A DNA stretch of 54,867 nt from Bacilli bacterium (GTDB lineage Bacteria; Bacillota_I; Bacilli_A; RF39; UBA660): positions 1 to 54,867 of the forward strand of contig JAQUYH010000009.1 in assembly GCA_028691955.1 (NCBI GenBank). Direction: 5' to 3'. Within the stretch, counting starts at the first letter, position 1. Each line of letters opens with the position of its first letter. This document shows, one piece after another, positions 1-53,358 of the stretch. Position numbers and translations under genes: made by a program. Under the pieces are notes generated by a model that saw only the letters and a program-made list of their open reading frames with translations, ran no database searches and was not told where the DNA came from.

Positions 1-1615
1 GAATATGTATACTATAATTAAAAATATTTTCTTTTCTATTACTTATTGTTATGATATTAGCTCCTCTTGCTTCTGTTTCTTTTAAGTTGCTAATCGTTTT
101 TTCTAAAATTGATTCATCAGTTAATATGCCAATAACAGGCATATTTTTTTCTATTAGAGATATCGTTCCATGTTTTAATTCACCAGCTGGGTAGGCTTCA
201 CTATGAATATAAGATATTTCTTTTAGTTTAAGGGATCCTTCCATAGCTAGAGCAAAGTCTATTTTTCTTCCAATAAAGAAAATATCTTCATTTTTGTATA
301 GTATTTTAGCTATAGCTTTATAATCAAAATTGATTAGTTTTTCCATTAACAAAGGAAGTTCTTTGATTGCTTCTTTTTCTATTTTTACTTTACCTAATTT
401 AATGGTCAATAGTATTAATATTGCAATTTGTGCAGAATAGGCTTTAGTTGTGGCAACGGCTATCTCAGGTCCAGCATTAGTATATAAAACTGTATCAGCT
501 CCTCTTGCTATTGAGCTATTAAAAACATTAACTATAGCTAAGGAATCTATTTTATTTTCTTTTACTAGATTTAGGCAAGCTAAGGTATCTGCAGTTTCGC
601 CAGATTGCGAAATAAATATTACTAATTTGTTTTTAGTATTTAGTAACTTCTTATATCTATATTCACTAGCTATTTCTACATTAACAGTAATATCTGCAAA
701 TTCTTCTATCAATGATTTAGCAATAAGACCTGTATGATAAGCACTACCGCATGCTACTATATCAAATTGTTTATATTTTTTGAAAGGTATTTTATTAATT
801 GTTTTTAGTAAAGAAGCGTTATTAAATATATTTCTAATTATTCCGGGTTGTTCGTGTATTTCTTTTAACATATAATGATCAAACCCTTTTTTATCAATGG
901 TATTTAATTTGTAATTGCACTCTTCTATTTGCCTATTTACTTTATTTAGCTGATTGTCATAAATAGTAATTTCATCTTGTTTTAAAACACCAATATCATG
1001 GTTTTTTAAGATAATGTATTGATTGGTATTTTTGATGAAGGCACATATATCAGAAGCTAAGAAAGTCTCTGCTTTTCCTATTCCTAAAACTAAAGGACTG
1101 TCTTTTTTCATACAGTATATATTGTTTTCATTTTCAAAGAGAATACCTAAAGCATAAGAACCTGTCAAAAGTTCTTGAGCTTTTTTTAAAGAAATTATTT
1201 CGTTATTTGTTTCTTTATAGAAATTATCAATTAAAGCAGCTATTACTTCAGTATCTGTATCCGACTTAAATGTGTAACCATCTTTAATTAAATTTTGCTT
1301 TAAAAGTTCATAGTTTTCAATTATACCATTATGAACAATAGTAACTTTTCCAACTTTATGTGGGTGAGAGTTTACTATACTAGGTTTTCCATGAGTAGCC
1401 CATCTAGTATGTCCAATACCAATAAGCGAATTACTATCTTTTATTTTATTTTTTAAATCAATTATTTTTCCCACTGATTTTGTTATTTTAGTTTTATTAT
1501 TTTCAATGTATGCTATACCTGCTGAATCATATCCTCTATATTCTAGATTAGAAAGAGAGTCTATCAAAACAGGGATAGCTTTTTTGTGGCCTATGTAGCC
1601 AGTTATTCCGCACAT
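1..1615 (-). CDS. glmS: Glutamine-fructose-6-phosphate aminotransferase, C-terminus beyond the window
   Basis: GlmS makes glucosamine-6-phosphate from fructose-6-phosphate and glutamine, the first step towards UDP-GlcNAc for peptidoglycan and capsule. Read on the minus strand, the protein begins MCGITGYIG, so Cys2 is the N-terminal glutaminase nucleophile after Met removal. It continues with EYRGYDSAG, GHTRWATHG and HNGIIENY of the glutaminase domain. Two SIS isomerase domains follow, with SQSGETADT and a later GSLKLKEISYIHSEAYPAGELKHG stretch. About 538 residues are present of a usual ~600, so the last ~60 lie off the left edge. The ATG at 1615 has a GGAGG site 6 bases upstream. A glmS ribozyme sits in its leader, so glucosamine-6-phosphate should repress it. 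Identity is secure. Confidence 0.97.
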   Translation of the reverse strand, partial: MCGITGYIGHKKAIPVLIDSLSNLEYRGYDSAGIAYIENNKTKITKSVGKIIDLKNKIKDSNSLIGIGHTRWATHGKPSIVNSHPHKVGKVTIVHNGIIENYELLKQNLIKDGYTFKSDTDTEVIAALIDNFYKETNNEIISLKKAQELLTGSYALGILFENENNIYCMKKDSPLVLGIGKAETFLASDICAFIKNTNQYIILKNHDIGVLKQDEITIYDNQLNKVNRQIEECNYKLNTIDKKGFDHYMLKEIHEQPGIIRNIFNNASLLKTINKIPFKKYKQFDIVACGSAYHTGLIAKSLIEEFADITVNVEIASEYRYKKLLNTKNKLVIFISQSGETADTLACLNLVKENKIDSLAIVNVFNSSIARGADTVLYTNAGPEIAVATTKAYSAQIAILILLTIKLGKVKIEKEAIKELPLLMEKLINFDYKAIAKILYKNEDIFFIGRKIDFALAMEGSLKLKEISYIHSEAYPAGELKHGTISLIEKNMPVIGILTDESILEKTISNLKETEARGANIITISNRKENIFNYSIHI

Positions 1616-1644: not shown

Positions 1645-1773
1645 ATATACTTTTTGTTGCAATGTTAATTTTGCTTTTTTTTATATATTTGTCGTCTACA
1701 CTAAGTCCGTAACAGTATCCGCCGAATTCTCGATAACTATTATCCTCGTCACCTATTTAAAGGTCTGGCGCTA
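1645..1773 (-). ncRNA. glmS self-cleaving ribozyme/riboswitch
   Basis: On the minus strand the leader carries the conserved core of the glmS ribozyme: AGCGCC at 1772-1767, GTGACGAGG further on, then TTATCGAGAATTCGGCGG and a following GGATAC. Self-cleavage in this family falls just before GCGCC, here between 1772 and 1771. The 3' part can form the P4/P4.1 element: outer ATATA/TATAT ending near 1645, inner GCAA/TTGC. Glucosamine-6-phosphate is the cofactor, and cleavage destabilises the glmS message. It lies about 30 bases ahead of the glmS start. The 3' boundary is approximate. Confidence 0.95.
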
Positions 1774-1810
1774 ATTATAAATACCCTTTCTATTTATATA
1801 ATTTTATTTA

Positions 1811-1895: not shown

Positions 1896-4055
1896 ATGCA
1901 AGTACAAGTTTTAACAGAAATCAAATCTAAAAAACTGGACAAAACGTTTACTTATAAAGTTCCTTTAGAAATGGAGGATTTAGTAAGTGTTGGACAGCGT
2001 GTATTAATACCATTTGGTTCTAAAGAGTTAGAAGGCTTTATTTTAAAAATAGAAGATGATCAAGAGTTAGATTATGAAATCAAAGATATAAAAGAATTAA
2101 TTGATGATATTCCAATATTAAATGATGAAATGTTAGAACTTGGTTCGCTTTTAGCTAAAAGAACTTTTTCAAGCTTAATGTCTATTTATGAAACAATGTT
2201 ACCAAAAGCGTATAAAGCTAAAAGTAATTATAAAGCAAATAAGAAATACGTTACTTATGTTGTTTTAAATAAAGAAGATAATAATGTAACAGGAAAGCAA
2301 AAAGAGATATTTGATTTAGTTAAAAATGGTAGAGTTCTAAAAAAAGAAGCACAAAATGTTTCATTGTATGCTTATAAAAAATTAAAAGAAACTGGTGTTA
2401 TAAAAGAAATTGATGAAGAAGTTTATAGATTATGTGATGATAATTGTTATCAAGATAAAGACGTTGTTTTAAATGATGAACAAAATAAGATCGTAAATTT
2501 AGTCAAAGATAATTTGTGTTGTTATAAACCATATTTATTATATGGAGTAACGGGTAGTGGTAAAACAGAAGTATATATGCATATTATAAGTGAGGTTTTA
2601 AATAGTGGTAAAGAAGCTTTAATACTTGTTCCTGAGATTAGTTTAACGCCGCAACTTACAGGTGTATTTAAAGCTAGGTTTAAAAGTAATATTGCTATAA
2701 TGCATTCTAGACTTAGTGATGGTGAAAGATATGATGAATATCGTAAGATTTTAAGAAGGGAAGTTAAGATAGTAATAGGAGCAAGAAGTGCTGTATTTGC
2801 TCCTTTAAATAATTTAGGAATTATTATTATTGATGAAGAGCATTCTCAAACTTATAAGCAGGAAAATAATCCTACATATAATGCTATTGATGTTGCTTTA
2901 TATAGAGCAAAAAAACACGATATTCCTGTTATTATGGGAAGTGCTACACCTAGTATTGAATCTTTTACGAAGGCTAGACTAAATAAATATGAACTTTTGA
3001 CTTTAAGAAATAGAGTTAATAATACTAGTCCTAAGGTTCATATTGTTGATATGCAAAAGGAATCTAAAAAAGGTAATAAATTGATATCTAAAGAGCTATT
3101 AAGTTCTATTAGTGATAGGTTAGATAAAAAGGAACAAGTAATTTTACTTTTAAATAGAAGAGGATACAATACTATAACTACTTGTCATGATTGTGGTTAT
3201 GTTGATAAGTGCCCTAATTGTGATATTCCTTTGATTTATCATAAGTCTTCTAATACAATGAGATGTCACTATTGTGGCTATGGAGCAAGAGTTTTAACAG
3301 TCTGCCCAGAATGCAATAGTAAAAATATAAATATGTATGGAATTGGAACACAAAAGTTGGAAGAAGAAATTAAAAAGTTATTTCCTAATTCTTCTGTTGT
3401 AAGAATGGATGTTGACTCTACTAGTAAAAAGGGTATGCATGAGAAAATAATTAATGATTTTAGAGATAAAAAATATGATATTTTAATTGGAACACAGATG
3501 ATAGCTAAAGGGTTGGATTTTGATAATGTTACTTTAGTTGGTGTGATAAATGGTGATGCTAGTTTGAATATTCCTGATTTTAGGAGTTCTGAGAGGACTT
3601 TTCAGTTACTTAATCAGGTGTGTGGTAGAACGGGTAGAAGTGATAAGGAGGGTGTTGCTTTTATTCAAAGTTTTAATACTGATCACTATAGTATTAGATT
3701 TGCTGCAAGTAATGATTATGAATCTTTTTATAATTATGAAATGAATATTAGAAAAAAATTAAAATATCCTCCGTTTTTGAATTTAGCTTTGATCAAGTTT
3801 AAAGGAAAAGATTATGATTTAGTTAGTGTAGAAGCTAATAAAGTTAAAAGTTATTTTGATGGTAAGAGCAATATTCAATTATTAGGGCCAACAAGTGCTA
3901 GTATGCTTAAGGTAAATAACGTTTATAATATACAAATTATAATAAAGTATAGAAGTTTTAAGGATATAGATAGTGATTTATTATATGTTTATAATAAGTA
4001 TAAAGCTAATAATAAAGTAAATGTTGATATTGATATTAACCCTGTTAAAATTTAA
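1896..4055 (+). CDS. priA: Primosomal replication restart helicase PriA
   Basis: PriA is the 3'-5' superfamily 2 helicase that recognises stalled forks and reloads the replisome. The 719-residue protein has the N-terminal DNA-binding part (about 1-110), Walker A GVTGSGKT at 217-224, the DEEH box at 313-316, and GSATPS near 348. A zinc-binding insert has eight cysteines (430, 433, 439, 442, 457, 460, 470, 473). Motifs V and VI are IGTQMIAKGLDF and VCGRTGRS; the usual Ala/Gly before GR is Cys-Gly here. The length is normal. AGGTG lies 5 bases before the ATG. It is followed after 32 bases by fmt, as in many Firmicutes. All motifs look intact. Confidence 0.97.
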   Translation: MQVQVLTEIKSKKLDKTFTYKVPLEMEDLVSVGQRVLIPFGSKELEGFILKIEDDQELDYEIKDIKELIDDIPILNDEMLELGSLLAKRTFSSLMSIYETMLPKAYKAKSNYKANKKYVTYVVLNKEDNNVTGKQKEIFDLVKNGRVLKKEAQNVSLYAYKKLKETGVIKEIDEEVYRLCDDNCYQDKDVVLNDEQNKIVNLVKDNLCCYKPYLLYGVTGSGKTEVYMHIISEVLNSGKEALILVPEISLTPQLTGVFKARFKSNIAIMHSRLSDGERYDEYRKILRREVKIVIGARSAVFAPLNNLGIIIIDEEHSQTYKQENNPTYNAIDVALYRAKKHDIPVIMGSATPSIESFTKARLNKYELLTLRNRVNNTSPKVHIVDMQKESKKGNKLISKELLSSISDRLDKKEQVILLLNRRGYNTITTCHDCGYVDKCPNCDIPLIYHKSSNTMRCHYCGYGARVLTVCPECNSKNINMYGIGTQKLEEEIKKLFPNSSVVRMDVDSTSKKGMHEKIINDFRDKKYDILIGTQMIAKGLDFDNVTLVGVINGDASLNIPDFRSSERTFQLLNQVCGRTGRSDKEGVAFIQSFNTDHYSIRFAASNDYESFYNYEMNIRKKLKYPPFLNLALIKFKGKDYDLVSVEANKVKSYFDGKSNIQLLGPTSASMLKVNNVYNIQIIIKYRSFKDIDSDLLYVYNKYKANNKVNVDIDINPVKI

Positions 4056-4087: not shown

Positions 4088-5053
4088 ATGAATATAGAAG
4101 ATATAAAAGTAAATAAAAAAATTAAAGTTGTTTTTATGGGAACACCTGAGTTTGCTGTTCCTATTTTAGAAGAATTGATTAATAATTATGATGTTAGAGG
4201 CGTTATTACGCAACCAGATAAACCTTTTGGACGTGATGGTAAGTTAGCTAGTCCTCCTGTTAAAAAGATAGCTAGTGCTAATAATATATTGGTTTTTCAA
4301 CCTTTAAAAGTAGGGGATATTTTAGAAGATATTAAAGGACTTGATATTGATATAATTGTGACTTGCGCTTATGGTCAAATTGTTCCTAGTTCAATTCTTA
4401 ATTTACCTAGACTGGGATGTATTAATGTACATGCTTCTTTGTTACCTAAGTTAAGAGGTGGAGCTCCTATTCATAGAGCTATTATAGAAGGGCACTCTAA
4501 AACAGGTATTACTATTATGTATATGAATGAAAAAATGGATGCTGGAGATATTATCGCGCAAGAAGAAATGCCTATTTTAGAAAATGATACGGCTTCTTCT
4601 ATGCATGATAAGTTAAGTAATTTAGGGGCTAGTTTATTAATTAAAACTCTACCTAGTATAATTGACGAGACTAATGAGAGAATTAAGCAAGATTCATCAT
4701 TAGTTACATATGCATTTAATATTAAAAGAGAAGATGAAAAATTAGATTTTTCTAAAACGGCAAGAGAGATTTATAACCAAGTAAGAGGACTTAATTCATG
4801 GCCTGGAGCATATTGTTTATTTGAAGGAAAAGTTCTTAAAGTTTGGGAATGTCGTGTTACTAATAATTATTTTCCTGAGAAGTTTGACGGACAAATTACT
4901 AATATATATGATGACGGTATTGGAGTTAAGGTGTCTAATGGCGAAGTAGTACTTACTTTAATTCAATTAGAAGGTAAGACTAAAATGCCAGCTAGTCAAT
5001 TTGTAAATGGTATTAATAATAATGGTGATTTGATAGGAAAAGTATTGGATTAA
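4088..5053 (+). CDS. fmt: Methionyl-tRNA formyltransferase
   Basis: Fmt transfers a formyl group from 10-formyl-tetrahydrofolate to Met-tRNA(fMet) for translation initiation. The sequence shows KVVFMGTPEFAVPIL at the N-terminus, the folate/active-site segment NVHASLLPKLRGGAPI, ITIMYMNEKMDAGDII, and a C-terminal OB-like domain (REIYNQVRGLNSWPGAYC onwards). An in-frame ATG exists at 4070, but a GGTGAT Shine-Dalgarno site lies just before the ATG at 4088, so I prefer the 321-residue form. The gene lies downstream of priA in the same direction and ends in a bidirectional terminator facing recD2. Confidence 0.95.
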   Translation: MNIEDIKVNKKIKVVFMGTPEFAVPILEELINNYDVRGVITQPDKPFGRDGKLASPPVKKIASANNILVFQPLKVGDILEDIKGLDIDIIVTCAYGQIVPSSILNLPRLGCINVHASLLPKLRGGAPIHRAIIEGHSKTGITIMYMNEKMDAGDIIAQEEMPILENDTASSMHDKLSNLGASLLIKTLPSIIDETNERIKQDSSLVTYAFNIKREDEKLDFSKTAREIYNQVRGLNSWPGAYCLFEGKVLKVWECRVTNNYFPEKFDGQITNIYDDGIGVKVSNGEVVLTLIQLEGKTKMPASQFVNGINNNGDLIGKVLD

Positions 5054-5076: not shown

Positions 5077-7261
5077 AGTTTGTATTAATGATTTTATTTT
5101 TTAAATCGGTTTTTCTAATCATTTCGCTATTATTTTCAATGCTATGAATAAAAGCACTTTTACTTCCAACTAAGAATAGTTTCTTTTTAGCTCTAGTAAT
5201 TCCTGTATATATTAGTTTTCTATAAAGCATTCTATTATAAGCGCTAGTAATAGGAATAATAACATTATCAAATTCACTACCTTGTGATTTATGAATACTT
5301 ATAATAAAACCATGTTTGATTTTATTTAAGTCTTTTGGCTCATATGTTATAACGTTTGTTTCAAAATCAATATCTAAAAATATCTTTTTTTCTTTATAGT
5401 AAATATCTTTAACTACTCCTATATCGCCATTAAAGACGTTGTCATCAGGCATATTTTCAAGTTGTAGTACTTTATCGTTTACTCTAAATGTAACATCGCC
5501 ATAAACATATTCTTTTTTATTATTCTCACTGGGATTAAATATATTTTGTAAAATAATATTTAGATTATCAATACCGTTTTCTCCTTTATACATAGGAGCT
5601 AAAAATTGAATGTTTTTATATTTTTTTTCTTTTAATTTAATAGCTAAAGCTTTAATGGTCTCTCTTAATTCAAGATTAGTGCATTCTAAAAAGTTATAAT
5701 CATTATGCTTTTTTAAAAAATTATCGGATAAATTGTTATCTTTTATTTCTTTAGCTAAAATGTTTATATAAGAGTTTTCATCTTGCCTATATAATAAATC
5801 TAAAACAACAGTATTTATTTTATTTGATTCAATTAAGTCTTTTAATATTTGTCCTGGACCAACACTTGGTAGCTGATTATAGTCACCAACTAAAATAAGC
5901 TTTACATTACTATTTAAACCAGCTAGTAAACTGCTTAATAAATTGATATCTATCATACTTACTTCATCAACTATAATCAATTTGTGCATAGCTTTATTGT
6001 ATTCATTAATGGCAAAACTATTGTTTTCTTTATTCCACTTTAAGTATCTATGGATAGTGTAACTAGGTAAGTTAGTTGCTTCACTCATCCTTTTACTAGC
6101 TCTACCTGTTGGAGCGAGTAGAGCAATTTCTTCTGTTACTTCTTTAGCTCCTATATTATTTATTATTTGATATAAAGATGTAATTGCTTTAATGATGGTT
6201 GTTTTACCAGTTCCAGGTCCTCCTGTTATGATTAATAAGTTTTCTGTTAATGCTTTTTTGATGGCTTCTATTTGTTTGTCATTATAATTAATATTAAGTT
6301 TTTCTTCTAAGTCTTTAATATAGAAATCTAGGTTTTTATATTTTATTTGATCATTATGAAGAAGTCTTCCTATTTTAGAAACGATTTCTTTTTGATTTTC
6401 ATACATATAATATAGGTAATATTTAGAATCATCATTGTATAGTTTCTTTTCATTGATTAAAGAATATAAATAGTTATTAAATTCATCAAATTCAAACTCA
6501 TGGTTTAAATATTTACAAGTTGTATTATAAATGTCTTCATATTCTAAGTATGTGTTTCCTGTTTCGTATATTAGTTTATTAAAAAGATATATAATTAAGG
6601 CTTTTATTCTTCTAGAATCTAATAAATCAAAGTCTAGAGTTTTAGCTATTGAATCTATTTTGTTAAAACTAATTTCGGCTTCTTCTACTAAATCATAGAT
6701 GTTTGTTTTTACTTTATCTATAGTATTATCTTTATATTTGTTGTATATAGTTAAAGCATCTTTTAAAGTAAAACCCATATCTGTTAAGTAAATAATGGTT
6801 TCATGGCTTTCAGTGTATTTATTTAAGGTATTATAAATTAGTTTCATTTTGTCTTCACTTAGTTTGGGGATTCGATATAGACAATTTTGATTTTCTAATA
6901 TTTCATTTAAAGCATTTTCTCCTAATATTTTAACTATTTTTTTTGCTATGGCTTTACCAACGCCTTTAAATAAATCACTACTTAGAAATTCAATAATTCC
7001 GTCTTCATCACTTGGTAGTATTTTTTTATATTCATTTACGCTATATTGATATCCATATTTTGGATGATTAATTAGTTCTCCTTTTAGGATATACATATCT
7101 TCTTCATTTAAATCACAGAAGTAGCCTGTAAATGTTATTGTTTTGGATTCCATATCTTTTAATATATCATTATCGGTTTCTGAAATCTTTAATATGCCTA
7201 CAGTATAGCCTTTATCTGTCTTATATATTGCTCTTTTAAATGTTCCTTTTATATAGCTCAT
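5075..7261 (-). CDS. recD2: RecD2-type superfamily 1 DNA helicase (YrrC family)
   Basis: RecD2 is a 5'-3' helicase acting in DNA repair and fork maintenance in bacteria that lack RecBC partners. The protein has an N-terminal OB-like region, helix-hairpin-helix-like segments (for example DLFKGVGKAIAKKIV near 96-110), and Walker A GGPGTGKTT at 347-355. Further motifs are LLAPTGRASKRM, the Walker B IIVDEVSMID, GDYNQLPSVGPGQ, HGFIISIHKSQGSEFD and the C-terminal YTGITRAKKKLFLVG. At 728 residues it is close to family length. A GTG at 7270 is in frame but is part of the AAGGTG ribosome-binding site, so the ATG at 7261 is the start. Confidence 0.95.
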   Translation of the reverse strand: MSYIKGTFKRAIYKTDKGYTVGILKISETDNDILKDMESKTITFTGYFCDLNEEDMYILKGELINHPKYGYQYSVNEYKKILPSDEDGIIEFLSSDLFKGVGKAIAKKIVKILGENALNEILENQNCLYRIPKLSEDKMKLIYNTLNKYTESHETIIYLTDMGFTLKDALTIYNKYKDNTIDKVKTNIYDLVEEAEISFNKIDSIAKTLDFDLLDSRRIKALIIYLFNKLIYETGNTYLEYEDIYNTTCKYLNHEFEFDEFNNYLYSLINEKKLYNDDSKYYLYYMYENQKEIVSKIGRLLHNDQIKYKNLDFYIKDLEEKLNINYNDKQIEAIKKALTENLLIITGGPGTGKTTIIKAITSLYQIINNIGAKEVTEEIALLAPTGRASKRMSEATNLPSYTIHRYLKWNKENNSFAINEYNKAMHKLIIVDEVSMIDINLLSSLLAGLNSNVKLILVGDYNQLPSVGPGQILKDLIESNKINTVVLDLLYRQDENSYINILAKEIKDNNLSDNFLKKHNDYNFLECTNLELRETIKALAIKLKEKKYKNIQFLAPMYKGENGIDNLNIILQNIFNPSENNKKEYVYGDVTFRVNDKVLQLENMPDDNVFNGDIGVVKDIYYKEKKIFLDIDFETNVITYEPKDLNKIKHGFIISIHKSQGSEFDNVIIPITSAYNRMLYRKLIYTGITRAKKKLFLVGSKSAFIHSIENNSEMIRKTDLKNKIINTN

Positions 7262-7395: not shown

Positions 7396-9051
7396 TTGAA
7401 AAATAATGATGACACCAAGATATTTGCTCTTGGTGGGTTATGTGAAGTCGGTAAAAATATGTATTGTGTAATGCATAAAGACGAAATTATTATAACGGAT
7501 GCAGGTGTTATATTTCCTGAAAGTGATTTACTTGGTATTGATTATGTTATACCTGATTATACTTTTTTAAAGCAAAATCAAAGCAAGATTAAAGCTTTGG
7601 TTATCACACATGGACATGAAGACCATATAGGAGGGATTCCGTATTTACTTCAAACAGTAGATATACCTTTTATATATGCTCCAAGACAAGCTGTAGGCTT
7701 GATTAGAAGAAAACTAGCTGACCGTAATGTTAAATATAGTAAGTTAGTTATATATGATGAAAGTACGGTTTTAAAGTTTCATCATATGAAGGTGGAATTT
7801 TTTAGAACAACACATTCTATTCCTGATTCGCATGGAATATGTATAACAACACCTAATGGTGTGATAGTAACTACGGGGGACTTTAAGTTTGATTTAACGC
7901 CTATTGGCCCTGTAGCTGATATTCATAAAATGGCTGAAATTGGAAGTAGAGGAGTTACTTTATTATTAAGTGATAGTACTAATGCTTTGAATTCTGGATT
8001 TTCGATGAGTGAATCTAAAGTAGATGCGGCTTTATCTAATATATTTATGAAACATAAAGGTAGAATTATTATTGCTACTTTTGCATCTAATATTTATAGA
8101 CTTAAACATATTGTTGATACTTGTAAAAGAAATAATCGTAAGATTTTAACTTTTGGAAGAAGTATGGTCAACAATATAGAGATTTCTATTGAAGGCGGAT
8201 ATATTACTAATAAAGAAATTTTTATTACTAATGAGGAAGCTAAAAAATTAACTGATGATCAAATTTGCATTTTGTGTACAGGAAGTCAAGGAGAACCTTT
8301 AGCGGCTTTATCTAGAATAGCTAATGGAAGTGATAGACAAATTAAGTTACAAGATGATGATTTAGTAATATTTTCATCTTCAACAATTCCAGGAAATGCT
8401 TTAAGTGTTTCTAAAACTATTAATAAGTTATATTTAAGGGGAGTAGAGGTTTATACTAATACTTTACTTAAAGATATTCATACGTCAGGTCATGCGAGTG
8501 AAGAAGAGCTTAAATTAATGTTAAGATTAATCAATCCTAAGTATTTTATGCCTTTTCACGGTGAATATCGTATGCTTAAAAAACATGCTGATATAGGAGT
8601 TCTTTGTGGTATTCCAAAAGATAACACTTTTGTTTTATCAAATGGCGAAGTGCTTTCTATGCATAATGGGGTTGTTACTAGAGAAGGTAATGTACAAGCA
8701 GGTGATGTTTACGTAGATGGTAATAGAATTGGTGAAGTATCTGGAGCTGTTATGAAAGATAGAAAAGTAATGGCTAATGATGGTATAGTAGTTGCTATAG
8801 TAAATATGGATGCTAATCATAAGATGCATGGTAAGCCTAATATAATGACTAGAGGCTTTGTATTAGTAAATGAAAACCAAATATTAATAAATGATTTAGA
8901 GAATTTAACAGTTAAATCTGTAACTAATTTAAAATGGAATAATTATGTAGATTTAAAAAACAATATTATAAGTGATTTATACCCTTATATTTTTGATAAG
9001 ACTGGAAGAAAACCACTTATTTTACCGATTGTTATGGACATAAAAAAATAA
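7396..9051 (+). CDS. rnj: Ribonuclease J (metallo-beta-lactamase/beta-CASP)
   Basis: RNase J is a 5'-3' exo- and endoribonuclease central to mRNA decay and rRNA maturation in Gram-positive bacteria. The metal site is visible: HGHEDH at 72-77, His140 in TTHSIPDSHG, Asp162 in GDFKFD, and a late FHGEYRML. The beta-CASP region holds TFASNIYRL and CTGSQGEPLAAL. The 551 residues match the family. The start is TTG at 7396 with GAAAGGAG 8 bases upstream; no better ATG exists. The usual LGGLGE(I/V)GKN reads LGGLCEVGKN, with Cys16 replacing Gly. Only one RNase J gene is seen here, so J1 and J2 cannot be told apart. Confidence 0.95.
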   Translation: MKNNDDTKIFALGGLCEVGKNMYCVMHKDEIIITDAGVIFPESDLLGIDYVIPDYTFLKQNQSKIKALVITHGHEDHIGGIPYLLQTVDIPFIYAPRQAVGLIRRKLADRNVKYSKLVIYDESTVLKFHHMKVEFFRTTHSIPDSHGICITTPNGVIVTTGDFKFDLTPIGPVADIHKMAEIGSRGVTLLLSDSTNALNSGFSMSESKVDAALSNIFMKHKGRIIIATFASNIYRLKHIVDTCKRNNRKILTFGRSMVNNIEISIEGGYITNKEIFITNEEAKKLTDDQICILCTGSQGEPLAALSRIANGSDRQIKLQDDDLVIFSSSTIPGNALSVSKTINKLYLRGVEVYTNTLLKDIHTSGHASEEELKLMLRLINPKYFMPFHGEYRMLKKHADIGVLCGIPKDNTFVLSNGEVLSMHNGVVTREGNVQAGDVYVDGNRIGEVSGAVMKDRKVMANDGIVVAIVNMDANHKMHGKPNIMTRGFVLVNENQILINDLENLTVKSVTNLKWNNYVDLKNNIISDLYPYIFDKTGRKPLILPIVMDIKK

Positions 9052-10683: not shown

Positions 10684-11433
10684 ATGCACATTTTAAAAAT
10701 AAATGATTTAAAAGTTAGTATAGATAATAAAATTATATTAGACGGTTTTAATTTAACTATTAAAAGTGGCGAAATTCACGCTATTATGGGGCCTAATGGA
10801 GTTGGTAAATCAACTTTAGCTAAGGTTATTATGGGTGACGATAATTATAAAATAATTAGTGGAGAAATACTTTTTGATGACGTATTAATTAATAATTTAA
10901 AAGTTAACGAAAGAGCTAATTTAGGAATGTTTTTAGGAATGCAAATGCCTTTAGAAATAGAAGGAGTTAGTAATGCTGATTTTTTAAGAACGGCTATTTC
11001 TAGTAAAGAAAAAGAAACATTTAAATTAATGAGTTTTATTAAAGAGTTGAATCAAAATGTGGAAAAGCTTGATATGGATAAGGAAATGATACATAGAGGT
11101 ATTAATCAGGGATTTTCTGGTGGTGAGCGTAAGAAAAATGAGATACTTCAAATGTATATGTTAAAGCCTAATTTTGTTATGTTAGATGAAATTGATTCAG
11201 GGCTTGATGTTGATAGTTTAAAAATTGTTGGAACTTCGGTTATGAATTATTTTGAATTATATAAACCGTCTATTTTGTTAATAACGCATTATCAAAGATT
11301 ACTAGATTATATTAAACCTACTCATGTTCATATAATTAAAAAGGGAAGAATTGTAAAAAGCGGTGGATCTGAGTTAGTCTCTCTTATAGAAGAAAAAGGT
11401 TATAATTATTTTGACGAGGCAATAGATGAATAA
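10684..11433 (+). CDS. sufC: Fe-S cluster assembly ATPase SufC
   Basis: SufC is the soluble ABC-type ATPase that drives the SufB/SufD scaffold in iron-sulfur cluster assembly. Visible motifs are Walker A GPNGVGKS (36-43), the SufC-specific MGMQMPLEIEGVSN region (about 83-97), signature SGGERKKNE (145-153), Walker B with DEIDSGLD (168-175), and the switch His202 in THYQRLLDYI. The 249 residues match the family. GGGGATGAT precedes the ATG. It overlaps the next gene by 8 bases, so translation is probably coupled. It opens a three-gene cluster sufC-sufD-sufS. Confidence 0.95.
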   Translation: MHILKINDLKVSIDNKIILDGFNLTIKSGEIHAIMGPNGVGKSTLAKVIMGDDNYKIISGEILFDDVLINNLKVNERANLGMFLGMQMPLEIEGVSNADFLRTAISSKEKETFKLMSFIKELNQNVEKLDMDKEMIHRGINQGFSGGERKKNEILQMYMLKPNFVMLDEIDSGLDVDSLKIVGTSVMNYFELYKPSILLITHYQRLLDYIKPTHVHIIKKGRIVKSGGSELVSLIEEKGYNYFDEAIDE

Positions 11434-51101: not shown

Positions 51102-51185
51102 TCATAACTATAAACTAATTGATAAAAAAATTAGAAGATGTGATATAATTTAATTGTATATAATTATTAAAGGATGTGTGTATAT

Positions 51186-51881
51186 ATGTATGACTCAAGG
51201 TATGAAGGGAAGTCTTTAGATTATCTTCAACGAGCTAAATCATCTATTCAAAAACAAATTGAACAATTAAGAATAGAAGAGGAAAAGTTAAGAAATTTAA
51301 GTCAAGTAACACATAGAAGAACAAGCGAACAAAATGTTTATGAAAAAAGAGTGAATAATAACAAAAAAGTAATGAAAGAAACAATATTAAAAATTGGTGC
51401 GAGAACTGTTATATTATCTTTTGTTTTCTTTTTCGCTGGTAGCATACTTATTACTAATGTTGTACCACTATTGATTGGTTCTGTAGCTGCTGGATTAGGA
51501 ATATCCGTTCCTTTATCTTTAGGTGAATCTATTTGGAAAATGGGTAGTTATGATAGAAAAAATAATAGGAGATTGCAAAATAATAGCAATACAGATTATT
51601 TGGCAATTAGTAGTGAAATTAATAAATTAAGTCTTGAATTAAGAGAAATTGATAGACAGATTAGACATATAAATCCTGTAGATTATAACAAAAGTCAACC
51701 AAGACAGCAGGTTGTAGTGACATATGAAGATGCACCTAAAAAACAAAGATGTAGTGAAATGCCTGGCTTAACGGTATACCAATCAGACCTATATGGGGGA
51801 AATATGGCTCTTTATAATTCACCTCCTAAGCAAATTAGGCAAGGATATAGCAATTCTAATAATGGTCATCATAGAATATAA
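51186..51881 (+). CDS. Hypothetical membrane protein with coiled coils (architecture pair, member 1)
   Basis: A protein of 231 residues with three parts: an N-terminal charged coiled coil (about 8-65, DYLQRAKSSIQKQIEQLRIEEEKLRN), two central hydrophobic helices (about 72-112), a second coiled coil (ISSEINKLSLELREIDRQIRHI), and a Gln/Ser/Asn/Gly-rich tail. The next gene has the same plan. The ATG at 51186 follows AAAGGAT; an ATG at 51174 overlaps that site. No family is recognised. The soluble arms and tails could recruit partners to the membrane, but nothing in the sequence shows which. Confidence 0.65.
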   Translation: MYDSRYEGKSLDYLQRAKSSIQKQIEQLRIEEEKLRNLSQVTHRRTSEQNVYEKRVNNNKKVMKETILKIGARTVILSFVFFFAGSILITNVVPLLIGSVAAGLGISVPLSLGESIWKMGSYDRKNNRRLQNNSNTDYLAISSEINKLSLELREIDRQIRHINPVDYNKSQPRQQVVVTYEDAPKKQRCSEMPGLTVYQSDLYGGNMALYNSPPKQIRQGYSNSNNGHHRI

Positions 51882-51907
51882 TAATAAAATAAAGGAAAGT
51901 GATATTT

Positions 51908-52546
51908 TTGAAAAATAATAATTTGGAATATATGCAATTATTAAACAAGCAAATAGAAATATCAAGAAGAATTACTTTTTTAAAAGAAAAACTTGGTACT
52001 GATAAATATCAGATAAATAAAAAAGATGATTTTTTTAAAACGGGAATAAAATATTCTACAATATCTTTGATTGAACAGACAATTTTAGTGGCTACTATTA
52101 TATTAGTAGGAGCTACTATTGTTGAAATTGGGGCTTTTGCTTTGTCAAATTGGGCATCATCTATATTAACAGAAATTGGGATTATTTCAGGTGGTGCTTC
52201 TGTTATTGTAGGTCCGACAGCTTTTTATATAAAAAAAATAAGGGAAGAAAAGCATAAAATAAAGAAATATAAATTAGATGACGACCTTTATCAAAAAAAA
52301 GTCTACGAAACGGAATTAACTGATTTGGAAAAAAAATTAAAAAGAATTAACTTGATGATTCAAGTACATCAATCATCAGCAATAATAAATAGTAGGGAAA
52401 AAGAAGTTACTCCAGAATTTGATTATACCATTGTTGGTGGTGAGACTGGTAAAATTGATGTTTTGCCAAGAGAAGATGATATGCAAGCAGGAATGCAACC
52501 AGGTGATCCATATGATCCACATAATTTTGGAGGAAGAAGCAGATAA
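51908..52546 (+). CDS. Hypothetical membrane protein with coiled coils (architecture pair, member 2)
   Basis: 212 residues in the same plan as its neighbour: coiled coil (YMQLLNKQIEISRRITFLKEKLG), two hydrophobic helices (about 50-105: ILVATIILVGATIVEIGAFAL and IISGGASVIVGPTAFYI), a long charged coil (KKIREEKHKIKKYKLDDDLYQKKVYETELTDLEKKLKRINLM), and a Gly/Pro/Asp-rich tail. I choose the TTG at 51908, which follows AAAGGAAAG at a spacing like that of RNase J; a GTG at 51899 is too close to that site. Its stop lies inside the left 16-base repeat flanking the toxin-antitoxin module. Confidence 0.6.
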   Translation: MKNNNLEYMQLLNKQIEISRRITFLKEKLGTDKYQINKKDDFFKTGIKYSTISLIEQTILVATIILVGATIVEIGAFALSNWASSILTEIGIISGGASVIVGPTAFYIKKIREEKHKIKKYKLDDDLYQKKVYETELTDLEKKLKRINLMIQVHQSSAIINSREKEVTPEFDYTIVGGETGKIDVLPREDDMQAGMQPGDPYDPHNFGGRSR

Positions 52547-52558
52547 AAGTAGAATTAA
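52543..52558 (+). repeat. Left copy of a 16-base direct repeat flanking the type III TA module
   Basis: ATAAAAGTAGAATTAA is found here at the stop codon of the coiled-coil gene and again, perfectly, at 53301-53316. In the right copy it forms the 5' arm of a terminator; here the 3' arm is missing. Confidence 0.7.
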
Positions 52559-52655
52559 AATAAAATCAGCAATGATATTTACTTTTGGTTTAAAATGTGA
52601 TATATTAAATATGCAGTTGAGATAATATCAATATATTTGCGGATATTATTATAGT

Positions 52656-52759
52656 AAATGTTAATCGCTCTCGGATGGTGCGAACAATAAATTATTCCGA
52701 ATGAGAAATGTTAATCGCTTCTAGATGGTGCGAGCAACAAATTATTCTAGACGAAAATG
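52656..52759 (+). ncRNA. Type III antitoxin RNA: two 50-base pseudoknot repeats (CptI/ToxI-like)
   Basis: Two direct repeats (52656-52705 and 52706-52755) each start with AAATGTTAATCGCT. A third AAATG at 52755-52759 closes the array. Each unit can form an H-type pseudoknot. Stem 1 is TCGC/GCGA (52665-52668 with 52680-52683; 52715-52718 with 52730-52733). Stem 2 is TCGGA/TCCGA in copy 1 (52671-52675 with 52696-52700) and TCTAGA/TCTAGA in copy 2 (52720-52725 with 52746-52751). Three adjacent stem 2 pairs change on both sides between copies, direct evidence of pairing. AAAU at each boundary fits the A-rich cut sites known for type III toxins. The toxin gene follows. Confidence 0.8.
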
Positions 52760-52761
52760 AT

Positions 52762-52797
52762 GAAAACTTTGCCGAATAGGTAGAGTTTTCTTTTTTT
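52762..52797 (+). terminator. Attenuating terminator between antitoxin RNA and toxin gene
   Basis: GAAAACT (52762-52768)/AGTTTTC (52784-52790) with an inner TGCC/GGTA stem (52770-52773/5279-52782 region) is followed by seven T residues. In type III systems such a hairpin makes antitoxin RNA exceed toxin mRNA. Confidence 0.85.
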
Positions 52798-52830
52798 GTA
52801 TGATAAAATTATTTAAAAGGAGATATCATA

Positions 52831-53304
52831 ATGGAAATAAGAACAGGATTTATTTATCATATAAAAGACTCTTATTTTTTAAAAGTTAATGATACATCAC
52901 TAATGGCTAATCATGAAGCTGGACATTCTAGACCAACATACTTTACTATTAAAGATGAAGATGTTTTGTGGTTTATTCCATTAAGTAGTAAAGTTGAAAA
53001 ATACCAGAAAATCGTAAATAAAAAGGTATCAAAATATGGTGATTGTAAAACTATATTAATAAGAAAAATTGCTGGTAAATATTCGGCTATTTTATTACAA
53101 AATGCTTTTCCTATTTTGGAAAAATATATAGATCATCCTCATATAATTAATGGAAAGCCACTTAAGGTTATTGAATCTTTAAAAGAAGAAGTTCTTGATG
53201 ATTTTAAATATATGATGTCTATGAAAGAAGAGGGAAATAACTTATTTTTTACAGATATTGATAATTTAAAAAAAATAATGCTAGAAGAATTATTAACAAC
53301 ATAA
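52831..53304 (+). CDS. Type III toxin-antitoxin endoribonuclease toxin, CptN/ToxN-like
   Basis: The 157-residue protein resembles the CptN branch of the ToxN/AbiQ superfamily. It begins RTGFIYHIKDSYFLKVND, then LMANHEAGHSRPTYFTIKDEDVLWFIPLSSKVEKYQKIVNKKVSKYG (about 27-75), with the family pattern of a RP-(T/C)-(Y/F) strand followed by W-x-IP-(L/I)-SSK-x-x-KY. LLQNAFPILEKYI (about 90-102) follows. Toxins of this group are endoribonucleases held inactive by the pseudoknot RNA they process. AAAAGGAGAT precedes the ATG, and an antitoxin-like repeat RNA and terminator lie directly upstream. The call rests on remembered family pattern plus the RNA context. Confidence 0.8.
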   Translation: MEIRTGFIYHIKDSYFLKVNDTSLMANHEAGHSRPTYFTIKDEDVLWFIPLSSKVEKYQKIVNKKVSKYGDCKTILIRKIAGKYSAILLQNAFPILEKYIDHPHIINGKPLKVIESLKEEVLDDFKYMMSMKEEGNNLFFTDIDNLKKIMLEELLTT

Positions 53305-53316
53305 AAGTAGAATTAA
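53301..53316 (+). repeat. Right copy of the 16-base direct repeat flanking the TA module
   Basis: Identical to 52543-52558. It begins at the toxin stop codon and forms the 5' arm of the toxin terminator. Confidence 0.7.
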
Positions 53317-53328
53317 TTTTCTACTTTT
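53303..53328 (+). terminator. Terminator of the toxin gene
   Basis: A 10-bp perfect stem AAAAGTAGAA (53303-53312)/TTCTACTTTT (53319-53328) with a 6-base loop. Confidence 0.85.
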
Positions 53329-53329
53329 A

Positions 53330-53358
53330 TTGTTTCATAATATAAAAAATGATACAAT
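53330..53358 (+). promoter_or_regulatory. Promoter of the second polysaccharide cluster
   Basis: TTGTTT (53330-53335), 17 bases and TACAAT (53353-53358), about 22 bases before the glycosyltransferase ATG at 53380. Confidence 0.55.

Follow-up and report, generated by a model that had tools for sequence, protein, structure and literature searches.

Among described type III toxin–antitoxin systems, the closest to the locus considered here is CptIN of E. rectale. As described in its structural report (PMC4627078), the crystal holds a 45-nt H-type pseudoknot RNA, CptI, from an array of two repeats; RNA and toxin (CptN) form a 2:2 ring, and a cyclic phosphate is found at the cut. Here we analyse positions 52656–53304 of a 54,867-nt contig from an uncultured Bacilli bacterium (JAQUYH010000009.1, assembly GCA_028691955.1), the whole of which is called the window. 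An original prediction, made from the sequence alone, had placed in this region two repeats able to form pseudoknots, a terminator and a toxin gene, and had read them as a CptIN-type system with a new unit sequence. The analysis leaves little doubt that this region is a chromosomal CptIN module; of the three tests proposed along with the prediction as able to overturn it, none did so. Coordinates are window positions unless a record is named, and L numbers are labels of the compared loci and contigs.

The predicted 157-residue gene is present as an open reading frame (Table 1), in one copy in the source genome. Its product matches the NCBIfam model NF047359 (type III toxin-antitoxin system CptIN family toxin) at 5.1e-46 and 156.2 bits, against a cut-off of 90, over profile positions 3 to 150 of 150, and phmmer matches residues 3–139 to E. 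rectale CptN (PDB 4rmo; 3.8e-19). These two matches bear out the CptIN-type assignment. The model was the sole NCBIfam match, in a collection for which the presence of a TenpN model was not established. By contrast, the Pfam model ToxN_toxin stays below its gathering score (0.00053; 20.6 bits against 25), which identifies the toxin as CptN rather than ToxN. PADLOC returned nothing on the locus but SspF at 0.022. All 100 clade toxins compared keep the active-site Ser51 (4rmo numbering), and 99 have Ser or Thr at position 52; at the columns of the Ser-Ser-Arg motif, Asp81, Ser85 and Tyr104, the window toxin has Ser, Ser, Lys, Gly, Ser and His.

The two predicted 50-base repeats lie upstream of the gene (86% identity over 42 nt, spacing 50 nt), and the intrinsic terminator claimed to follow them is equally evident, with a fold of -15.9 kcal/mol (z -5.95); the region contains 2 terminator-like sites against 0.1 expected, the second inside the gene. 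In unit numbering, stem S1 pairs positions 10–13 with 25–28 (UCGC/GCGA) and stem S2 pairs 16–20 with 41–45 (UCGGA/UCCGA in unit 1, CUAGA/UCUAG in unit 2), and the interleaved arms make an H-type pseudoknot possible in each copy. Three consecutive S2 pairs change with compensation between the copies (U-A to C-G, C-G to U-A and G-C to A-U), exactly as had been reported.

Covariation among relatives corroborates this fold. A regular expression applied to the toxin loci yielded 218 units, 147 of them distinct; after removal of 2 false positives and 20 units of other length or register, 125 distinct units remained in a gapless alignment of 51 columns. Pseudoknot positions are paired in 97.2% of cells, compared with 84.3% in shuffled alignments and 27–54% when partners are slid by 1–3 columns, so the pairing is not due to chance. 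Both sides have changed in seven of the nine pairs, the other two, both in S1, being invariant; the weakest pair, 16-45, is unpaired in 28 of the 125 units. The six highest column pairs by average-product-corrected mutual information are all pseudoknot pairs. Ranked seventh is 15-38, mostly C:U or U:G, which joins an L1 base to the 3′ part of L2, and eighth is 28-31, which joins S1 to L2. Both fall at known contact sites: the E. rectale crystal (PMC4627078) shows stacking between G13, the L1 base, and G35, at the end of L2, with L2 itself following the S1 minor groove. The effective number of sequences is 29, and relatedness remains a caveat. This large CptI set thus gives support to the crystal pseudoknot among relatives, and it suggests loop–loop and loop–stem contacts. 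Rfam gave no family match for the unit on this locus, apart from one chance match far below the gathering score; what is new here is the unit sequence and the host lineage, as had been proposed, whereas the kind of system was already known.

Homologues keep the same arrangement. In the window's family, 58 of 291 sampled genomes match the toxin, 47 of them above the cut-off; named genomes, when scanned, gave 79 loci, mostly, by record title, in uncultured Bacilli, Tenericutes, Erysipelotrichaceae and Candidatus Onthousia. The locus thereby extends the known range of CptIN to an uncultured gut lineage with small genomes. A total of 140 loci reduced to 126 distinct toxin loci, a figure that includes broken ones as well as L139 and L140, neither a credible relative (E 7e-4). 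Of the 126, 98 have a frame no shorter than 140 residues and 300 nt or more of upstream sequence; among these, nhmmer found two units in 86, one in 2, more in 3 and none in 7 (L133, L134 and L136–L140, of which L139 and L140 are spurious). Inspection by eye recovered one unit in L133 and two in L134 that the profile had missed; in L136–L138, different repeats start at the end of the examined stretch. L077 combines an open toxin frame with a single unit. Two units are the rule, an apparent single unit with an open CptN frame being seen in L077, L133 and L050; three loci (L013, L111 and L114) carry two modules in tandem, with related first and second toxins.

The two units are inherited as distinct positions. 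A comparison restricted to pseudoknot columns covered 62 distinct two-unit arrays with units of equal length. Of their 124 units 30 were tied; of the 94 others, 82 had their closest match from a different array at the same position. The sister unit was nearer for 16 of 124. With positions randomly swapped, the same-position share averaged 0.48 and reached at most 0.63 in 20 trials. Simple descent would explain such distinctness, as would a ring that uses one unit of each kind.

CptI-type units also occur without their toxin. Pattern scans of viral contigs, together with Geobacillus virus E3, gave 14 records with units but no credible CptN (examples in Table 1), or about eleven cases, L145/L148, L227/L256 and L255/L278 being near-copies. 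The first scan of IMG/VR, whose pattern did not include S2, returned 16 stretches: at least four of five S2 positions are paired in L143, L145, L148, L151, L152, L153, L154 and L157, and at most 2 in the other eight. A second pattern returned 16 contigs, with an S2 stem in 13; the remaining three (L279, L281 and L283) are chance matches. A third gave 24 stretches, 14 of them new, with S2 in L290, L293 (E3 itself), L299 and L300, the ten other new ones being chance matches without S2. In a broad viral scan with at least 84 sites, most among the matches listed had no good second stem. As a positive control, NF047359 passed its cut-off on the whole viral records L143, L152, L159 (the same contig as L154), L232, L282, L284, L290 and L300. 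Up to E 10, it found no match in L145 (128 kb), L148 (53), L153 (61), L179 (43), L180 (8), L225 (71), L227 (122), L255 (28), L256 (9), L278 (17), L280 (9), L299 (79) or E3 (141). Antitoxin-like RNA without a toxin, the mark of a phage antitoxin mimic, is therefore found in these 13 records and in L285 (99 kb), whose one match (12 bits, 0.007, inside a 3618-residue frame) we judge non-credible. IMG/VR records may be fragments, and L180, L256, L278 and L280 are short; the L179 case rests on one unit, whose S2 has five pairs. The E3 record is listed as a complete genome, presumably of an isolate; its units occupy an unannotated interval flanked by a PhoH-like gene and gp7.

Several of the toxin-less units resemble toxin-linked ones. 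Over 15 toxin-less units, 97.0% of cells are paired and five of six S2 pairs have changed on both sides; since the rows were preselected for a stem of five or more pairs, the evidence lies in how varied the S2 pairs are rather than in the percentage. Compared with its closest toxin-linked viral unit, that of L227 is identical at 40/44 positions, that of L280 at 39/44 and that of L145 at 38/44; the lowest figure, 27/44, belongs to L225. Tandem units whose S2 arms differ are present in L145, L148, L153, L180, L225, L285 and E3, as well as in the toxin-linked L290 and the window; in toxin-linked L282 the arms are identical. tRNA genes lie near the units in 7 of the 14 records (L145, L148, L153 with 14 tRNAs, L227, L255, L256 and L299) and were not found in the examined stretches of L179, L180, L225, L278, L280, L285 and E3. 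Rfam placed a drum RNA beside the L145 units (1539-1654); the units of L227 (the tandem 6A pair and skipping-rope at 6792-7013) and of L256 have skipping-rope RNA and a pair of 6A RNAs nearby. In six toxin-less stretches, 16 of 20 proteins had a PHROG match, including terminase (weak), exonuclease, DnaB helicase, integrase and transposase; L179, L180, L278, L280 and L299 lay outside this sample.

Searches of isolated phages gave no match for CptN by tblastn, one weak match for the window units by blastn (E 0.3) and weak matches only for the L145, L227 and L282 units. PF13958 matched no phage record, but its controls were also silent, so this search is uninformative. A second unit type was not found in 392 genomes around the window's class, and no bacterial host can thus be assigned to it; a plasmid search gave 7 records at under 60% identity. 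On other viral contigs, single pseudoknots fitting the descriptor were seen in L170 (~1105) and L167 (~980), where they adjoin tRNA genes, in L228 (~354) and L230 (~3964), just upstream of an apparent gene that we take to be uvsX-like, and in L211 (~10579). NF047359 found no CptN in these five records, and their pseudoknots may be decoys or something else.

We lean, with some reserve, towards reading the phage arrays as multivalent RNA decoys against host CptN: they are complete and toxin-less, several hold two units of different specificity, and about half lie near tRNA genes. CptIN, including the module in the window, would then be a natural phage defence, and the fast compensated change in S2 the trace of an arms race. 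CptI–CptN recognition was strictly cognate in three systems tested (PMC4627078), and this would favour several units per phage. Such a defence role contrasts with published tests of CptIN systems in E. coli, in which no anti-phage effect was seen (PMC4627078, PMC5086642). A less probable, though still serious, explanation is that the units are relics of CptIN modules that lost their toxin, or RNAs with another role in the phage. It fits the single units of L227, L255, L280 and L299, the unit adjoining a broken toxin on viral contig L151, a terminator-like hairpin retained behind the L285 units (by eye), the presence of unlike tandem units beside toxins too, and the nearby Rfam families of unknown role. 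It accommodates less well the both-sided changes in S2, the closeness of several units to toxin-linked ones (others being quite divergent), and the persistence of complete two-unit arrays in unrelated records, including E3. Titles and abstract openings of a literature in which few subscription journals were covered contained no report of toxin-less CptI in phages. Read as decoys, the units would imply that CptIN meets phages in nature, and phages would be part of its purpose; although it lies outside the window, this lead is a larger gain than the window locus itself.

For the window locus, several observations weigh against the CptIN reading. Arg53 of 4rmo is replaced by Lys (as in 97 of 100 clade toxins), Asp81 by Gly (Asp in 18 of 100) and the adenine-holding Tyr104 by His (as in 94 of 100), and Ser85, although present here, is shared by just 59 of 100. 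As drawn, two loop bases (U14, then 15) separate S1 from S2, compared with one in E. rectale, and the promoter-like pattern scan of the region, with 15 sites against 7.8 expected, fixed no promoter upstream of the array. That the locus is a decayed remnant with a non-functional pair is nevertheless very unlikely: while broken CptN copies are frequent in the family, 23 of the 126 distinct toxin loci lacking one frame of at least 140 residues, some of them cut by contig ends, the window frame is open throughout and covers nearly the whole profile, both units are fully paired in S1 and S2, and the terminator is intact. Still harder to credit is that the module belongs to ToxIN or TenpIN, or that its gene encodes an RNase of ToxN fold with no relation to the repeats. 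In favour is the weak ToxN_toxin match, such as a distant fold relative should give, but this match is below the gathering score, the CptIN equivalog model lies far above its cut-off, and two units stay upstream of homologues in 86 of 98 loci.

Table 1. Parts of the CptIN module in the window, and CptI-type units on viral records without a credible CptN
Record	Feature	Position	Strand	Basis or remark
Window	CptI unit 1, 50 nt	52656..52705	+	Repeat; pseudoknot counted over 125 homologous units
Window	Unit 1, S1 arms	52665-52668 with 52680-52683	+	A-rich L2 separates the two 3′ arms
Window	Unit 1, S2 arms	52671-52675 with 52696-52700	+	
Window	CptI unit 2, 50 nt	52706..52755	+	Repeat; pseudoknot pairing in homologous units
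Window	Unit 2, S1 arms	52715-52718 with 52730-52733	+	
Window	Unit 2, S2 arms	52721-52725 with 52746-52750	+	
Window	Intrinsic terminator, between array and toxin	52762..52797	+	12-bp stem (52762-52790), then T7
Window	AAAAGGAG, ribosome-binding-like stretch	Immediately 5′ of cptN		By eye
Window	cptN, 157-aa CptN-family endoribonuclease toxin	52831..53304	+	ORF, profile, PDB 4rmo match
Window	12-bp hairpin with T-rich 3′ arm, spanning toxin stop	53301..53330	+	-12.0 kcal/mol, z -6.54
Window	Two weak promoter-like matches upstream of array	52578-52606, 52597-52626	+	Low weight
L145	CptI-type units	1684-1786		No credible CptN
L153	CptI-type units	2699-2799		No credible CptN
L225	CptI-type units	801-883		No credible CptN
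L227	CptI-type unit	7616-7669		No credible CptN
L255	CptI-type unit	11031-11084		No credible CptN
L280	CptI-type unit	8898-8951		No credible CptN
L285	CptI-type units	4838-4938		No credible CptN
L299	CptI-type unit	2188-2241		No credible CptN
L286 (Geobacillus virus E3)	CptI-type units	2947-3046		No credible CptN

An exact 16-bp direct repeat flanks the module (52543-52558 and 53301-53316), its right copy forming the left arm of the hairpin over the toxin stop. This repeat may be the scar of an insertion; an empty site cannot be demonstrated, because the sole other genome of the genus lacks the gene on either side. In a flank similarity test, 16 of 98 loci exceeded all 60 shuffles, L003 among them as an artefact of the sampling window; the window's own pair scored 30, short of the highest value among its shuffles (32). 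The exact-repeat version of the test covered 99 loci. Clustering, used instead of a strict ppdK motif found in 4 of 102 loci, showed the same upstream gene family in 18 of 102 CptIN loci (L002, L004, L006, L010, L013, L029, L044, L058, L093, L102, L111 and others), which from its C-terminus we take to be pyruvate phosphate dikinase. The array sits within 160 nt of the stop of this gene in 11 of the 18, and in 7 of those 11 a copy of the gene's 3′ end follows the toxin stop, by eye. The pyruvate phosphate dikinase-like gene may be a hot spot at which insertion duplicates the site. Adjoining the module in the window are genes 51174-51881 and 51899-52546, with no credible Pfam or NCBIfam match. 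Each product shows hydrophobic stretches by eye, and the single other genome of the genus lacks the second gene.

Gene order, terminator, toxin family membership and a conserved pseudoknot are established directly for this locus, and they suggest how it may work. A promoter upstream of the array would produce an RNA with two CptI units; the terminator would halt most transcripts, leaving the antitoxin in excess, and read-through would yield CptN. By analogy with the solved relative, CptN, an endoribonuclease, would process its own precursor, cutting at the A-rich borders between units to release pseudoknots of about 50 nt, which would bind the toxin and mask its active site, probably in a ring of two proteins and two RNAs. 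Were the short-lived RNA lost, through loss of the module or phage shut-off of host transcription, free CptN would be expected to cleave cellular RNA and stop growth, its toxicity again being taken from the relative. An anti-phage trigger is suggested by the toxin-less CptI units in phages.

Set beside E. rectale CptIN (PDB 4rmo; PMC4627078), the window locus shares toxin family, gene order, two repeats and terminator, as well as an H-type pseudoknot with a very short L1 and a long A-rich L2. It differs in unit length (50 nt compared with 45), in the stem sequences, in the Lys and His at the positions of Arg53 and Tyr104, and in its uncultured host lineage. ToxIN (Pectobacterium, the host of PhiTE; B. 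thuringiensis; AbiQ) works on the same principle, a repeat RNA cut and bound by an RNase toxin, but has units of 34–36 nt, 2.8–5.5 repeats and a trimeric ring (PMC5086642), and the window toxin does not pass the Pfam ToxN model. The precedent for toxin-less phage units is pseudo-ToxI of phage PhiTE, a phage-encoded mimic of a type III antitoxin RNA (PMC3475682). It imitates ToxI, whereas the phage units described here are of the CptI type, and wild-type PhiTE carries 1.5 repeats without a full unit, expanded in escape mutants. The CptI-type units, by contrast, are complete as found and include two-unit copies with differing S2 arms.
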